From Deltaproteobacteria bacterium (GTDB lineage: Bacteria > Desulfobacterota > Syntrophia > Syntrophales > UBA8958), in NCBI GenBank assembly GCA_026388335.1, contig JAPLJZ010000161.1, positions 1 through 47,542 on the forward strand: 47,542 nt of DNA, written 5' to 3'. The notes under the pieces were generated by a model. That model was given only the letters and a program-made list of their open reading frames with translations, searched no databases and was not told the origin of the DNA. Positions 29,631 through 46,065 of this stretch are shown here, piece after piece (position 1 is the stretch's first letter; each line of letters begins with the position of its first letter). The position numbers and the translations under genes were made by a program.

Positions 29631-30578
29631 CTATGCGACCATGCTCTGCATATTTTTTCTAAACCACGCCACCGCTTCTCTGAATCCCTGATCGAAGCCG
29701 TACCGGGGATGCCAACCGAGTTCCTCCTGAATGGCACGAGTATCGGCCGTCCATATCGATGTGTCCCATATCCGGTCCGTCATGGAACCCCAAACCGGCT
29801 CGGTTTTGATATCCATCACTTCACAGGCCGTTTCCACGACTTCGCGAATAGATGTCTGCACACCCGTACCGACATTGTAGACGGCTCCCCGCAGACGGTG
29901 GGCCAAATCTGCTGCCAGCAGGTATGCCGTAATTACATCTTCCGTGAAGACGAAATCTCGGGCAATTTCCGGGCTGACAAGGGGCGGCAGCTCTCCCCGG
30001 AGCCCCCGTGAGATAAGAGTGGGGATAAGACGCGTCGATTCCTCCCAGGGACCATAAACTGAGTAGAGCCTGAGTGTTAAAAGGGGCAAGTGATGATACA
30101 TGGCCGCATAGGTACAGAAAAGGGTCGCCGATGCCTTGGTAACGGCGTAGTGACTGTTCGGTTCCAGCCACTCCTTTTCCGACGGTGGGTGATCCTTGAA
30201 CCCGTATTCAGAAGATGATCCGGTGTGTATGAACGCTTCGCAGCCTGTTTTTATGCACGCCTCAACAAGGTTGACCGTCCCGATGAAATTGGTTTGAATC
30301 ATCTGTTGAAAATCCTTCTGGTCCGAGTAGGCGCCATATGCAGCCATATGAAAGATGCGGTGGGGCTGAATGTCGCGAACCAGTCCGGCGAGTCTTTCCG
30401 AATGGGCAAAATCCGTGATATGAAGATTAATTTTCTTAAGGATGGAATCAATACGCCAGGGTCTGAAATTTTCCCTGACAAGCAGATGGACCTCGTGACC
30501 GTCACCGCACAAGCGGTGCGTCAGATTGGCACCCACAAAGCCCGTCGCTCCGGTAATTATAATACGCTTGTTTTTCAT
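29631..30578 (-). CDS. NAD-dependent sugar epimerase/dehydratase (extended SDR)
   Basis: The 315-residue extended SDR has GATGFVGANL near the N-terminus, the catalytic YAVTK (YxxxK) and LRLYSVYGPWEESTRL. It ends with a typical C-terminal helix region (LGWHPRYGFDQGFREAVAWF). It is closest by eye to GDP/CDP-sugar reductases and epimerases of O-antigen clusters. Its start overlaps the end of the broken methyltransferase gene as ATGA. The exact reaction is open. Confidence 0.83.
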   Translation of the reverse strand: MKNKRIIITGATGFVGANLTHRLCGDGHEVHLLVRENFRPWRIDSILKKINLHITDFAHSERLAGLVRDIQPHRIFHMAAYGAYSDQKDFQQMIQTNFIGTVNLVEACIKTGCEAFIHTGSSSEYGFKDHPPSEKEWLEPNSHYAVTKASATLFCTYAAMYHHLPLLTLRLYSVYGPWEESTRLIPTLISRGLRGELPPLVSPEIARDFVFTEDVITAYLLAADLAHRLRGAVYNVGTGVQTSIREVVETACEVMDIKTEPVWGSMTDRIWDTSIWTADTRAIQEELGWHPRYGFDQGFREAVAWFRKNMQSMVA

Positions 30579-30838
30579 GATAAGCGCCTTGCAGCCATAA
30601 CATAAACGGCACAGGCCAAGGCATTGAGGACAGGAATAGCTTCTATGGCAGGTTCCATTGTTTTCATCAGTCTGGCTAGTCGGTCCGGGCAGAACATCGG
30701 AACGAACCCGGCGAACTTCTCATAGTTCACTTCACCCCCCGCCTTCTCAACCCAATACCTAAGGCGGCGGGACGAGTATGATTTTTCCCCGTGTTCTCGA
30801 TGGTAACGGGATATTTTCTCAATGATTTTCAGCCCCAT
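30575..30838 (-). CDS. C-terminal fragment of a frameshifted methyltransferase
   Basis: This 87-residue ORF is the natural continuation of the gene at 30855-31295 in another frame. Reading its frame upstream of the ATG gives RVAPLILIHEPNGNN and then MGLKIIEKISRYHREHGE, the usual post-core segment of class I methyltransferases. Removing one T from the TTT run at 30890-30892 (GAAAGG to GAAGG on the coding strand) would join both halves into a single protein of about 239 residues. Its stop overlaps the next SDR start by 4 bp, so the gene was or is part of the operon. Confidence 0.7.
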   Translation of the reverse strand: MGLKIIEKISRYHREHGEKSYSSRRLRYWVEKAGGEVNYEKFAGFVPMFCPDRLARLMKTMEPAIEAIPVLNALACAVYVMAARRLS

Positions 30839-30854
30839 GTTGTTTCCGTTCGGT

Positions 30855-31295
30855 TCATGAATGAGAATTAGAGGAGCAACCCGGAAGCCTTTCGCGGATT
30901 ATCTCCATCGGACTGTCACTGTGGTGGAGAATGCTCTGGATGAGAACCATGTCGAAGGCATCGTCGTGGAAAGGCAGCCACCGCGCATCACTCACGACGA
31001 ACTGAAGGCGACGCTCCCGCGAGTTCATCCTGGCAACATGAATGGCTTGGGGAGCAGCGTCGACAGCAGTGATGATCCGGGGCATTCCCCTGTCAAAAAA
31101 CCGGACCGTGTAGAATCCGTCTCCGCACCCAAGATCGAGGATGGAGCAATCCGACATGGTGACCGCCTGGAGAATGATGTCCGTTGTCCGCTGCGTGGCC
31201 ATCTGCGCACTGAGGGGCGCATCTTTCGTATACAGGTACCCGCCGTGCTGTGCCGCGTCGGTGTCAAATACTGATATTTCATTCACAGGTTTCAT
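30855..31295 (-). CDS. N-terminal fragment of a frameshifted class I SAM methyltransferase
   Basis: The 146-residue ORF contains the SAM-binding motif ILDLGCGDGFYTVRFF, the acidic VDAAPQ end of beta2, and FDMVLIQSILHHSDSPMEIIRE. Frame 0 then turns into RLPGCSSNSHS and stops. A one-base change near 30890-30892 would let it continue into the 30575-30838 ORF. It overlaps the upstream methyltransferase stop by 4 bp. If the shift is real, the C-terminal half of the enzyme is lost and activity is doubtful. Confidence 0.75.
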   Translation of the reverse strand: MKPVNEISVFDTDAAQHGGYLYTKDAPLSAQMATQRTTDIILQAVTMSDCSILDLGCGDGFYTVRFFDRGMPRIITAVDAAPQAIHVARMNSRERRLQFVVSDARWLPFHDDAFDMVLIQSILHHSDSPMEIIRERLPGCSSNSHS

Positions 31296-41130: not shown

Positions 41131-42651
41131 TCATATGACATGGGGAGTCCTTTCTCGAAATCCATTGATATATTGGATAAATAAGCGCCGGACCTCAAGG
41201 GTGGACATTGATGTGACGATAATAGAAACCAAGGCCGTTACCAATATACCAATAAGCATGATCCAGATGTTTGTTATTGGATCAAGAATTATTCTGCCGA
41301 TCAGGGTGACGGCAAGTGCTGCAAACAACGGTCGACCTACATCTTGAGTGTACCAAAGCCCTAATTCCCCCGGTAGAGACTGCCGATGAATGATATGAAT
41401 AAGGGATAAGGTGTAGCTAATGTGGACTGCAACTAAACCAACAGCAGCGCCGTATACGCCATACATTTTTGTCCCGGCATATATAGTAACGGCCATGACC
41501 AGCATCACTATGAAGCTGATGAAAAAGATCGCCTTTACTCTACCGTTAGCATATTGCAGGCTTAATGACAGGTGTGATAGGCCATTTATCAATGTTGCGA
41601 TTGTCAGCAGCACCATGATTAAATATGTTTTTTGAGCAGTCAAAAGATCCTGTGTCCAGATCAACAGAATCTCTTTGGGAAAAAAAACCATAATGAGGCT
41701 TACCGGGATAATAATAACAGACATCAATTGACAACTTACATGATACAATCTGCGTAGCGAGACTGTATCATGTAACGCCACAAGCTGTACCATTCTTGGA
41801 TAAACTGCAATTACCAAAGGACTAATAAGACGACTGAAACTTGTCGCTGCTGTACTTGCGAGAGAGTAATAGCCAAACATTTCCAGGGATAGCAGTTTGC
41901 TTAAAATGATCTTGTCCATCTGTGAGATCAGCAGTCCTGCGATTGAGCTTCCCCCGGCACCTGCCGTAAAATGCCAGGTCCCTTTTAACAAACTCGTCTG
42001 AAATTGAGATTTCACACCTGTAGAGGGGATCTTTTCCCAAAGAAAGAGGGCGAGAATGCTTGTTTGGACAAAACTCGCCAGAATTTGCCAGGCAAAAAAG
42101 GCATTGAGCGTTGGGGAAATGAGCCAAAGGACAAGAATCGTACCAATGCAACGGAATGTAGCCATTCCTGCGGTGATAGCATTCAACAGGATCTGGTGCT
42201 GCAGACCGTTTAAGCCGGAAATGTAGAAACTAGACGGCCATTGTAGCGCAATAGATACACCCATGAGGATAACAGCATACTGGACAGTCTGTAAGGGCAG
42301 CTTGCCCGTTTTCAACCAGTCGTGGGCTATGGTATGGGATGCCGTAATCATGACCGTGCCTAACAACAAAGCGATCAGCCAAACAGGTATTTCAAGGGAT
42401 CGGACAAGATCTCGCGCTTCCTGCACTTTGCCTGGAAGTGCTGACAGACGTGCCAATTCTCGACCAAGGGTGACGGTCATCCCCATATCCAGGATGGAAA
42501 ACAGGGAGAAGAACATCACCGAAATTCCGATCAGGCCGTAGGCTTCAATTCCGATGAAATAAATATAGACGGGGATGACGATGATCGACAGCAAGGCCGA
42601 CCAGCCGTTCCCGGCAAGATTTGCAATGACGTTCCGTTTTATGAGACTCAT
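41131..42651 (-). CDS. wzx: O-unit flippase, Wzx/MATE-like polysaccharide transporter
   Basis: The 506-residue protein has about 12-14 predicted helices and the conserved N-terminal NVIANLAGNGWSALLSIIVIPVYIYFIG of polysaccharide-biosynthesis (PST/MOP) transporters. It should flip undecaprenyl-pyrophosphate-linked O-units across the inner membrane. It lies 16 bp after the large GT-C gene. With the WecA-like transferase this supports a Wzx-dependent pathway rather than an ABC route. No Wzy or Wzz partner was identified in the window. Confidence 0.85.
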   Translation of the reverse strand: MSLIKRNVIANLAGNGWSALLSIIVIPVYIYFIGIEAYGLIGISVMFFSLFSILDMGMTVTLGRELARLSALPGKVQEARDLVRSLEIPVWLIALLLGTVMITASHTIAHDWLKTGKLPLQTVQYAVILMGVSIALQWPSSFYISGLNGLQHQILLNAITAGMATFRCIGTILVLWLISPTLNAFFAWQILASFVQTSILALFLWEKIPSTGVKSQFQTSLLKGTWHFTAGAGGSSIAGLLISQMDKIILSKLLSLEMFGYYSLASTAATSFSRLISPLVIAVYPRMVQLVALHDTVSLRRLYHVSCQLMSVIIIPVSLIMVFFPKEILLIWTQDLLTAQKTYLIMVLLTIATLINGLSHLSLSLQYANGRVKAIFFISFIVMLVMAVTIYAGTKMYGVYGAAVGLVAVHISYTLSLIHIIHRQSLPGELGLWYTQDVGRPLFAALAVTLIGRIILDPITNIWIMLIGILVTALVSIIVTSMSTLEVRRLFIQYINGFRERTPHVI

Positions 42652-42667: not shown

Positions 42668-44341
42668 TCAAGGGATGGTTTTGCCCCGTATCATTATTTT
42701 CTCGATGGCAAACGCAAACCCTGAACAGATAATAATCATATAGAATCCGTATCTAAGACGGGAAAGGGTTCCCACATTGGCATAAACGTAGGTAAAGACA
42801 ATAAGCCCAAAGGTGCTGTGGAGGGTAATGAGCCAGAATAGAAGGTTACTGCGGTTTTCCCAGAGGCACCAGATGAAGAACAAAAGACATGTATAAAAAA
42901 TAATCATCATGCCTCCTATCATGCGCTTACCTAAAGTACTTGCAGGCGTGCTGCCTTGCCTAAACCATTCCGACGGAAAGGGGCTGAGAAATGCGATCTG
43001 CATGGCACGGGGGAGATATTTCACAACAGCAACAAACGAGTTTAAGGAGGTGTAGCGGTCAATCGAAGTATTTCCTCCCGCACTGGCTGTTCCGAGACGG
43101 TACACCCACAATCCATATAGTTTATTATCTATGAAGGACGGTATATAGGAGGTTTGCTGCCAGTTGAGTACTTTATTTCTTTTTTCATTAAGTGCTTTAT
43201 TCCATTCCATGAGTCCCTCATGCCAAATAATTAGATCATGTAAATACTGTTTCTTCTCTTCTTTGGACAGTTGTCCAAGATTCACCTGACTGACCTTTTT
43301 CTTTTCAACAACCGTCCTAACTGCATTTATATTTTCTTCCGTTTTGTATTGGAAGAGATATTGGTGCTTTTCCTCTAAATACGTATGCAATGCTACTAAA
43401 TGGTGCAATATCTCTTTTATTTGGTTAGTATCTAACAATTTTTCCTGTTCAGTGATCCACCACTTTTCTTTTATTTGGTTAGTCTCAAATGATTTTTCCT
43501 GTTTGGTTATCTGCAGCTTTTCTTTTTCGGCAGCAGCCTGGCTTTGAGCATTCCATTCTGCACCCAGGAACATGAAAGGAACCTGAATGCCAATCATCAG
43601 ACAACTGGTTACGATGGTTGTCAAAAGCCAAGATGGATGATAATCCTTCACATGAATTAATACATAAATCACAATGACAGCAAACAGCAGGATGCATGCT
43701 ACAATGGCAACTTGATTCCAGTAAGGCCTTGATGCCCAGATGCCTAGCGACCCGGCAATAGTAAGCAGGAGGGAATATAAAAAATAGGTCCGTCGTTTTT
43801 TGATTAGGCCCTTAATTAAAAGATACCAGCCTGTCAGCATCATCAAATTCCCAAGGATATAAGTACCGTCTCGGTGGATTTGTGACGTCCATTCAAGAGA
43901 TGCCGGATTAAGCACAAAGAGACCGGCACCGCATGCTGCCGCCAGACGATTCCGGATAAAGGAGGAAAGCAGGAGATACACAAGACAGCCGGATGTTGCA
44001 TGAAGAACGGCATTAAATGGGATCATCGCATATGGTTCAGGCTTCCACAAATAATAAAATATGGATGTGATGCCGGCGGGATATAGCAACTGGGGACGTA
44101 GCTCCCAGGCAGTCCACCCTTTCTGCGCCATTTCCAGGGCTTTCCGGACGCCGATTCGGTGAAAGCCGGTAGAATCGGGCACGAATATACCGTGAGCCCA
44201 GAAAATACTCGGCATTACATGGGGTAAAATCATCTGAATGACAAGAGCAGAAAAGACTGTATAGGTAAAAAAAATGACCCACAGGCCCCACCAGGTGGTG
44301 CATAGAGAATGGATTGTTGCTTTTAAATTATTGGGTTGCAT
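42668..44341 (-). CDS. GT-C-like membrane protein with a charged helical insertion
   Basis: The product has about 557 residues from the ATG at 44341; the track's GTG at 44380 would overlap the upstream gene by 17 bp. The first extracytoplasmic loop carries FVPDSTGFHRIGVRKALEMA, placed as in GT-C catalytic loops, and LNPASLEWTSQIHRDGTYIL follows. A highly charged Lys/Glu/Gln-rich segment (about residues 275-390) interrupts the helices and contains two copies of IT(K/E)QEK..(E/D)TNQIKE. A GT-C glycosyltransferase is most likely. It could instead act as a polymerase, since none is otherwise seen. Confidence 0.6.
   Translation of the reverse strand: MQPNNLKATIHSLCTTWWGLWVIFFTYTVFSALVIQMILPHVMPSIFWAHGIFVPDSTGFHRIGVRKALEMAQKGWTAWELRPQLLYPAGITSIFYYLWKPEPYAMIPFNAVLHATSGCLVYLLLSSFIRNRLAAACGAGLFVLNPASLEWTSQIHRDGTYILGNLMMLTGWYLLIKGLIKKRRTYFLYSLLLTIAGSLGIWASRPYWNQVAIVACILLFAVIVIYVLIHVKDYHPSWLLTTIVTSCLMIGIQVPFMFLGAEWNAQSQAAAEKEKLQITKQEKSFETNQIKEKWWITEQEKLLDTNQIKEILHHLVALHTYLEEKHQYLFQYKTEENINAVRTVVEKKKVSQVNLGQLSKEEKKQYLHDLIIWHEGLMEWNKALNEKRNKVLNWQQTSYIPSFIDNKLYGLWVYRLGTASAGGNTSIDRYTSLNSFVAVVKYLPRAMQIAFLSPFPSEWFRQGSTPASTLGKRMIGGMMIIFYTCLLFFIWCLWENRSNLLFWLITLHSTFGLIVFTYVYANVGTLSRLRYGFYMIIICSGFAFAIEKIMIRGKTIP
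43414..43521 (-). repeat. 54-bp tandem duplication inside the GT-C-like gene
   Basis: Two adjacent copies begin at 43414 and 43468 (CTTTTATTTGGTTAGT on the + strand), giving a 54-bp period. They encode ITKQEKSFETNQIKEKWW followed by ITEQEKLLDTNQIKEI. The unit length is a multiple of three, so gain or loss of copies keeps the frame. Differences between the copies show the duplication is not very recent. Confidence 0.8.
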
Positions 44342-44363
44342 TGATATACTCGTTATGGTTTTT

Positions 44364-45053
44364 TTAAATTTTCCAATCACTCAGGAAGTAGTTAAACCGC
44401 GAGATGGGGTCCTGAATAGCGGATCTGTTTTTACGATAAAGGGAGTCAAACTCTCCTATATTGAGCTTTTCAAAGTAATCCATGTAACGAACTGATTCCT
44501 TAACAATTCCATTTAAATCGACCGCCTTGGTCTGCCATTGTGATGCAATAATATCCTTAATGGATGCTGATCGATTCGCTTTGTCAACAAACATCGTTCG
44601 TCGGTAAACATCGTATAAATGCCAGTCGTTATTGAAGTAAACTGCGGTAACGATGATGTGATTCGGTTTCGCTGCCGCAGGGCCATTGCATCTAAGCATA
44701 AATGCCTTTATACCGGCATAATTTGTGAGAGTAGCGAATACATCAGCCATCTGATCTTCAACACCATATCCACGAACGATGATGTGCCAGACGTGGTCGT
44801 CTATTATCGGCAGTTGTGGCGGTTGTTTTGCCACATGGCGGATCGTCCAGTTAAATATAGCTTCAACTTTCTGCTGATCATCCATTTTCTCCGTAACAAT
44901 CTGATTGACCAGCCATCGATAATGAAAGTGGCGCTCAAACAAGTCAAATGCCTTGAGGTATAGAGGAATGCGAATGGACTGGGTTTGATAATTGACGCCC
45001 TGCCGGGTGGTCGTTTCGATCGTGAAAAAAAATACAGAAAAATACAAATGCAA
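44364..45053 (-). CDS. Transglutaminase-fold protein lacking the catalytic Cys; N-terminus frameshifted
   Basis: The ORF-track frame (229 residues, TTG start) contains a transglutaminase-like core: QKVEAIFNWTIRHV, then RGYGVEDQMADVFATLTNYAGI, then HIIVTAVYFNNDWHLYDV. The place where active enzymes have Cys (G-x-C-x-x) reads Glu (E99), while the His and Asp positions are kept, so it looks like a pseudoenzyme. The better start is a GTG at 45094 behind GGGAGG, giving MLKKKQLFKYIAVSCICIFL, a membrane anchor, in another frame. One extra base in the A8 run at 45025-45032 would join them. It sits between GT2 and GT-C genes. Confidence 0.7.
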   Translation of the reverse strand: MHLYFSVFFFTIETTTRQGVNYQTQSIRIPLYLKAFDLFERHFHYRWLVNQIVTEKMDDQQKVEAIFNWTIRHVAKQPPQLPIIDDHVWHIIVRGYGVEDQMADVFATLTNYAGIKAFMLRCNGPAAAKPNHIIVTAVYFNNDWHLYDVYRRTMFVDKANRSASIKDIIASQWQTKAVDLNGIVKESVRYMDYFEKLNIGEFDSLYRKNRSAIQDPISRFNYFLSDWKI

Positions 45054-45100
45054 CTGACGGCAATATACTTGAATAATTGTTTTTTCTTTAGCACGATCAT
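45025..45100 (-). other. 5' end and homopolymer tract of the transglutaminase-like gene
   Basis: An A8 run (T8 on the coding strand) at 45025-45032 separates a well-placed start (GTG at 45094, with GGAGG seven bases before it) from the frame of the transglutaminase core. From that start, one extra base in the run would put LYFF and FTIETTTRQGVNYQ in one frame. The tract length could therefore switch the gene on or off, or it may be a base-calling error. Confidence 0.6.
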
Positions 45101-45129
45101 TCCTCCCGAAGGCATTGCCAATTGTCCAT

Positions 45130-46065
45130 TTATGTTGGCAATGGAACAGGAATTTTTAGATTCAGGCTTTGAAATACTTTTTTCGCTACTGTAGTGCCAA
45201 ATAATTTTCCCATTCCGTAGAACAGGATTTTCCGAAGGATGATCCTTGATTCGATTATAAAAAGCTCCGTCATGGCCTGAATCTTTTCCCACGCGCCAAG
45301 GGGTGATCGTAAAACGGAATAGGCTTGATTATAAGCCATTACAAAAAAAGGCAGATAAAACTTTGGATAGTGGTTTTGCGGATTCAGAAATTTATAATGC
45401 TGTGCAGGAGTTCGTACTTTTTCCCTTCCAAAATACCAAAAAAGGACCTCCGGTACCTCTGCAAATTTACCATAAAGGGACAATTCATTAAAAAAAGCTA
45501 TGTCCGATCCTAAATAATTTCTCCAGAGTCTCGTCTTTCGTGCCGCATCAGCTCTGATAAGTGCATAGAAAGCAACACAGGCAATTTCCTCCCCTGTACG
45601 ATAGGCGGCCAAAAAACGATCGACAGGTTTTGCCAGGCCTACAAGAGGTGTTATGTTCACATATTTTAACAAGTTATCCACATCATGAAGCACTAACGCT
45701 ATTTTTGATTGGCAAAGGACAACACCTTCATCTCTTTCTATTTCCTGGACACATTTCCGGATATAGGCGGGATGGCGTCGATCGTCCTGAGCAACCCAAG
45801 TGAAATATTTCCCTTTGGCCAAATGGAATGTGCGATTAAAATTGGCAACGGCGCCTGAGTTTTTTTGCATGGGATGGTATGATATCCTATTGTCTTTTTG
45901 CATCCAGCGGCGGCATATTTCAGGTGTTTCATCCGTAGAACCATCATCGGAAATAATGATTTCGATGTTCTGATACTCGGAAGCCACCATAGATGCCAGT
46001 GTAGCATCCAGCGTTTTTTCACCGTTATAAACAGGCATGCATATGCTGACTAAAGGATTACACAT
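45130..46065 (-). CDS. Glycosyltransferase family 2
   Basis: This 311-residue GT-A enzyme opens PLVSICMPVYNGEKTLDATL and has IIISDDGSTDETPEICRRW. The metal site is YFTWVAQDDRRHPAYI (QDD). It ends without membrane helices, so it is probably a cytoplasmic O-unit glycosyltransferase. Its ATG directly abuts the upstream methyltransferase stop, so the two are probably co-translated. The donor sugar is not known. Confidence 0.87.
   Translation of the reverse strand: MCNPLVSICMPVYNGEKTLDATLASMVASEYQNIEIIISDDGSTDETPEICRRWMQKDNRISYHPMQKNSGAVANFNRTFHLAKGKYFTWVAQDDRRHPAYIRKCVQEIERDEGVVLCQSKIALVLHDVDNLLKYVNITPLVGLAKPVDRFLAAYRTGEEIACVAFYALIRADAARKTRLWRNYLGSDIAFFNELSLYGKFAEVPEVLFWYFGREKVRTPAQHYKFLNPQNHYPKFYLPFFVMAYNQAYSVLRSPLGAWEKIQAMTELFIIESRIILRKILFYGMGKLFGTTVAKKVFQSLNLKIPVPLPT

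Follow-up and report, generated by a model that had tools for sequence, protein, structure and literature searches.

A small family of Cys-less transglutaminase-fold proteins in surface-polysaccharide gene clusters, and a frame break at a T8 tract in one member

Introduction

Two described proteins serve as precedents for the function of the gene analysed here. In budding yeast, Cyk3 carries a transglutaminase-like domain that lacks the Cys and stimulates chitin synthase (PMC4758748). In Caulobacter, HvyA, which belongs to the BTLCP family, is an active, exported protein that restricts capsule formation (PMC4241560). A third point of comparison is the regulation of genes by homopolymeric tracts close to their 5′ ends, as in the phase variation of inlA (PMC2831843).

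The locus described here lies on the minus strand of one entire contig of 47,542 bases (the window), which is part of a genome assembled in 268 contigs and 4.06 Mb. The initial annotation described a transglutaminase-fold pseudoenzyme whose best start is separated from its core by a run of eight A, and proposed that slippage in this tract could switch the protein on and off. The analysis bears out most of this account of the protein and does not support the switch.

Organisation of the assembled locus

Just upstream of the gene lies the Shine–Dalgarno-like sequence GGGAGGA (45101–45107), within which GGAGG occupies positions 45106–45102. Two start codons follow. The GTG at 45094 is the better-spaced start, since it lies 7 nt from GGAGG compared with 1 nt for the ATG at 45100, but it is the ATG that gives the N-terminal length seen in the homologs. 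The ribosome-binding site and anchored start proposed in the initial annotation are thus both present, with the qualification that the spacing favours GTG over ATG. From either codon, frame 0 encodes MIVLKKKQLFKYIAVSCICIFLYFF ahead of the tract; the anchor-coding segment (45033–45100), beginning MIVLKKKQLFKYIAVSCICIFLY, comprises basic residues, three of them lysines, followed by a hydrophobic stretch.

The segment ends at a T8 tract (45025–45032; A8 on the plus strand), the point at which the frame breaks. Beyond it, frame 0 runs into an unrelated tail with a stop at 44804, so that the product as assembled (44804–45100) is a 98-residue protein made of the anchor and this tail, while the transglutaminase-fold core (44364–45024) continues in frame −1 relative to the anchor. 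The core frame offers no start before an internal TTG (45051–45053), from which it runs to 44364 and encodes 229 residues. The mean hydropathy over 19 residues is 1.67 for the T8 reading and 2.04 with the two frames joined. The arrangement of anchored start and core in different frames with A8/T8 between them is therefore as originally described, coordinates included. GATCGTG, close to the start, and CACGATC, immediately past the T tract, form an inverted repeat (45019–45098, minus strand) that might pair across the start region, but this pairing does not reach significance (z −1.58; 15 of 200 shuffles).

Relatives and the ancestral reading frame

Three relatives were found, two in Candidatus Omnitrophota contigs (L002 and L003) and one in G137 (L005), with 29–38% identity (over the best segment, 39% for L002 and 34% for L003). 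All three start with Met, continue through basic residues and a single hydrophobic segment, and run in frame into the motif TRQ(G/A).NF/Y. The number of residues that precede TRQ is 31 in L002, 31 in L005 and likewise 31 in the window copy when its frames are joined from ATG 45100. A gapless alignment of the frame-0 anchor with L005 scores 20 (reached by 1.5% of shuffles) versus −3 for the other frame; the same comparison with L002 is not significant (10.8% of shuffles). The frame mismatch is real, because the homologs are continuous across the site of the tract. Judged from these alignments, the frame that carries the anchor is the ancestral one, and the break in the assembled sequence lies in the T run or close to it. 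None of the three relatives begins at the internal TTG, which supports the earlier proposal that the upstream, anchored start is the true one.

Across the core, where the frame has no other interruption in 219 codons, the window copy keeps 39 of the 57 residues (68%) that are invariant in the other three members; the corresponding values for the others are 75–89%. No copy of the gene was found in 155 genomes of the same genus, family, order and class, nor in viral contigs or plasmids. Three remote matches (L006, L007 and L009) were left out of the family, as they look like ordinary Cys-bearing transglutaminase-like proteins. A further match in G103 (L008, 1005–1262) is a truncated N-terminal piece of the family, in which the anchor and THQGVNY... 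give way to unrelated sequence, near other small genes. It is probably a gene remnant, and this truncated copy indicates that the family gene is lost elsewhere too.

The core and its triad positions

Pfam model PF01841 (Transglut_core) matches residues 48–148 of the TTG-start protein over the full length of the model (E-value 4.2e-6; 27.4 bits against a curated cut-off of 23). The relatives score 24.2 (L002), 29.2 (L005) and 22.8 (L003, slightly under the cut-off). An AlphaFold2 model has a low mean pLDDT of 61.6; its top Foldseek matches are transglutaminase-like cysteine proteases with probabilities of 0.96–1.00, none at E ≤ 0.001. A sequence search of solved structures returned none of relevance.

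Aligned together, the four members share the pattern P..DDH..hIIxRGxGxEDQxADVF. The position of the catalytic Cys is occupied by E/E/E/S (window copy followed by the three relatives), that of His by H/N/V/Y and that of Asp by D/D/H/D. In the window copy, the catalytic Cys is replaced by Glu, while His and Asp are core residues 122 and 138. Profile comparison with a relative in G444 that has Cys, His and Asp (96.9% probability) places the Glu opposite the Cys, and the His and Asp opposite their counterparts. The G444 protein (L097, 9500–11032) is a longer transglutaminase-like protein with the full Cys–His–Asp set that aligns to the family core, and is a candidate catalytic relative.

No member of the family has the Cys–His–Asp catalytic triad of active transglutaminases and BTLCP peptidases. 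Catalysis has been lost in the family as a whole, because Cys is gone in all four copies, His is present only in that of the window and Asp in three of the four. Loss of the nucleophile is common to the whole family and the triad overall is not maintained. A transglutaminase-fold core with Glu in place of the catalytic Cys, as first read from the window alone, is supported by the Pfam match and by the profile alignment to the Cys-bearing relative. The accompanying statement that the core keeps His and Asp is correct for the window copy but does not extend to the family.

Gene neighbourhood and proposed function

The start region lies within 36 nt downstream of a family 2 glycosyltransferase gene (45130–46065; PF00535, 6.2e-30). 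On the other side, the core stop is overlapped by the start of a gene (42668–44380) that encodes a large membrane protein matching no known family and is followed by a Wzx-type polysaccharide flippase (41131–42651; PF01943, 1.1e-15). The large membrane protein has 570 residues and a repetitive middle rich in Lys and Glu (QITKQEKSFETNQIKEKWWITEQEKLLDTNQIKE). The window copy is thus placed among glycosyltransferases and a Wzx-type flippase. In G137 the neighbours are an asparagine synthase-like gene, a flippase and glycosyltransferases; L002 sits by an ABC transporter and an asparagine synthase-like gene, and L003 by glycosyltransferases with DUF218. Surface-polysaccharide genes surround the family gene in all four loci, in agreement with the link to glycans that had been suggested for the protein.

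These results point to a small family, so far without a name, of Cys-less transglutaminase-fold proteins that are anchored in the inner membrane and encoded in surface-polysaccharide clusters, and to an ordinary one-base indel in its window copy; we put the probability of this reading at roughly 0.62. By the positive-inside rule, the basic N-terminus and single hydrophobic segment would leave the intact protein facing the periplasm. By analogy with Cyk3, it would be non-catalytic and bind a glycan-assembly enzyme or the glycan, which suggests that it assists the assembly of glycans on the outer side of the inner membrane.

Origin of the frame break

A one-base indel in the T run near the 5′ end would leave the assembled allele with nothing but the 98-residue anchor fragment. 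Such an indel could be a real null mutation (or the consensus of a strain mixture), or a consensus error. Given the open core and the retained invariant residues, the allele would have to be recent if it is a null; the share of retained residues, slightly below that of the other members, is compatible with recent loss without being evidence of it. A second gene on the same contig, encoding a methyltransferase (30578–31295, minus strand), is broken independently near 30888–30892, in GAAAGGC, where there is no long homopolymer: Pfam methyltransferase matches to its N-terminal part stop short, the C-terminal part is picked up in the next frame, and the G021 homolog L012 spans the break without changing frame. 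With two genes broken within one contig of 47.5 kb, ordinary indels, decay, a mixture of strains or errors in the consensus fit better than a tuned switch. Along the same lines, Antonov et al. (PMC3711429) expect sequencing errors or recent indels to account for most single, unclustered frame-shifted genes that have homologs. Two attempts to obtain a background were set aside. A codon-model scan for frame shifts in 0.96 Mb reported two sites but neither of the breaks known in the window, so it gives no background rate; testing each A/T run of at least eight in turn was uninformative because the codon bias of the cluster is weak.

That the break is no break at all, and that the gene is intact from TTG 45053 as a soluble 229-residue protein to which the upstream start is irrelevant, is very improbable. 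The core frame is indeed open from this TTG and further upstream, and a tblastn search with L005 extends upstream in the core frame with weak similarity. Against this, no Shine–Dalgarno-like sequence precedes the TTG, the N-terminus of each of the three homologs is longer and includes a hydrophobic anchor, and a protein begun at the TTG lacks any membrane-spanning stretch (19-residue mean hydropathy 0.42).

The remaining alternatives give the T8 itself a role. In the form originally proposed, replication slippage would alter the length of the T run and turn the anchored protein on (in-frame length) or off (T8) within the population. The position is suitable, as the run lies within 25 codons of the start in a gene of a surface-polysaccharide cluster; prokaryotic genes carry an excess of poly(A)/poly(T) tracts at their 5′ ends, and those of inlA mutate about 1000-fold faster than average (PMC2831843). 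The tract, however, is no longer than the genomic background: 0.96 Mb of the genome contains 273 A/T runs of 7, 77 of 8, 6 of 9 and 1 of 10 (7 of at least nine), and since runs of eight are this common, the T8 is in itself unremarkable. The drop in counts beyond eight matches the general bacterial avoidance of nine, the length from which selection against slippage is evident in many bacteria according to Baranov et al. (PMC1088944). Within the window, five A8/T8 runs lie in genes, and the other four are in unbroken frames. No homopolymer tract occurs at the corresponding place in L002, L003 or L005, a weak test given how distant these homologs are. Only a single allele is seen, that of this assembly, with no second length state, and the unrelated gene of the same contig is broken without a tract. 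The claim of a switchable contingency tract is hence not supported, and phase variation is a quite doubtful account of the locus.

Alternatively, the T8 allele could be stable and still yield part of its product at full length, by a −1 slip of the ribosome on U_UUU_UUU (45032–45026) or by slippage of RNA polymerase on the T8 template. We regard this as unlikely. The heptamer has the required phase (codons TAT TTT TTT TCA), the −1 product would be the homolog-like anchored protein, and the core carries no other disruption; human apoB offers a recorded case of a frameshift rescued within a run of eight A's (PMC1088944). To this extent, some full-length product could come from the T8 allele, which counts against its being a null. 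Yet chance alone puts an in-phase heptamer in two of the three phases of a run of eight, downstream folding is no better than in shuffles (z 0.46 and 1.08), no Shine–Dalgarno-like stimulator lies just upstream, the homologs show no conservation, and eight is below the nine of Baranov et al. Of the hallmarks of programmed −1 frameshifting, then, the slippery heptamer is present, and a stimulatory element and conservation are not. The broader proposal, that a Cys-less anchored transglutaminase-fold protein regulates surface-polysaccharide assembly non-catalytically and that its output is varied by T8 slippage at the DNA, RNA or ribosome level, is likewise rather unlikely. The question of a switch matters less than the family; the tract currently looks like the site of an ordinary indel.

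Relation to known systems

The window tract shares with inlA-type tracts a frame change in an A/T run near the start codon, and differs in its ordinary length, the lack of a second allele and the lack of conservation (PMC2831843). For the protein, the features shared with the superfamily are as follows: the window core matches Transglut_core at full length and above the cut-off, the best structural matches of its low-confidence model are of the same kind, and its profile aligns to the Cys–His–Asp relative. What sets the family apart is the replacement of Cys by Glu (Ser in one relative) and a His that is not conserved. The signature P..DDH..hIIxRGxGxEDQxADVF makes it searchable.

HvyA is similarly an exported bacterial transglutaminase-like protein, is encoded with capsule genes and regulates capsulation, but it depends on Cys, His and Asp (the C192S/A variants are dead), while no member of the present family has the Cys (PMC4241560). 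Cyk3, in turn, lacks a catalytic Cys, retains His and Asp as does the window copy, and is tied to a polysaccharide-making glycosyltransferase; unlike the family, it is eukaryotic and cytoplasmic, carries an SH3 domain and has no anchor, and its His and Asp are conserved and needed (PMC4758748). By analogy, the family resembles HvyA in place and Cyk3 in chemistry. If this reading is right, it would be a bacterial counterpart to yeast Cyk3, in which a Cys-less fold is retained next to the enzymes of glycan assembly, where it presumably serves for binding or activation.
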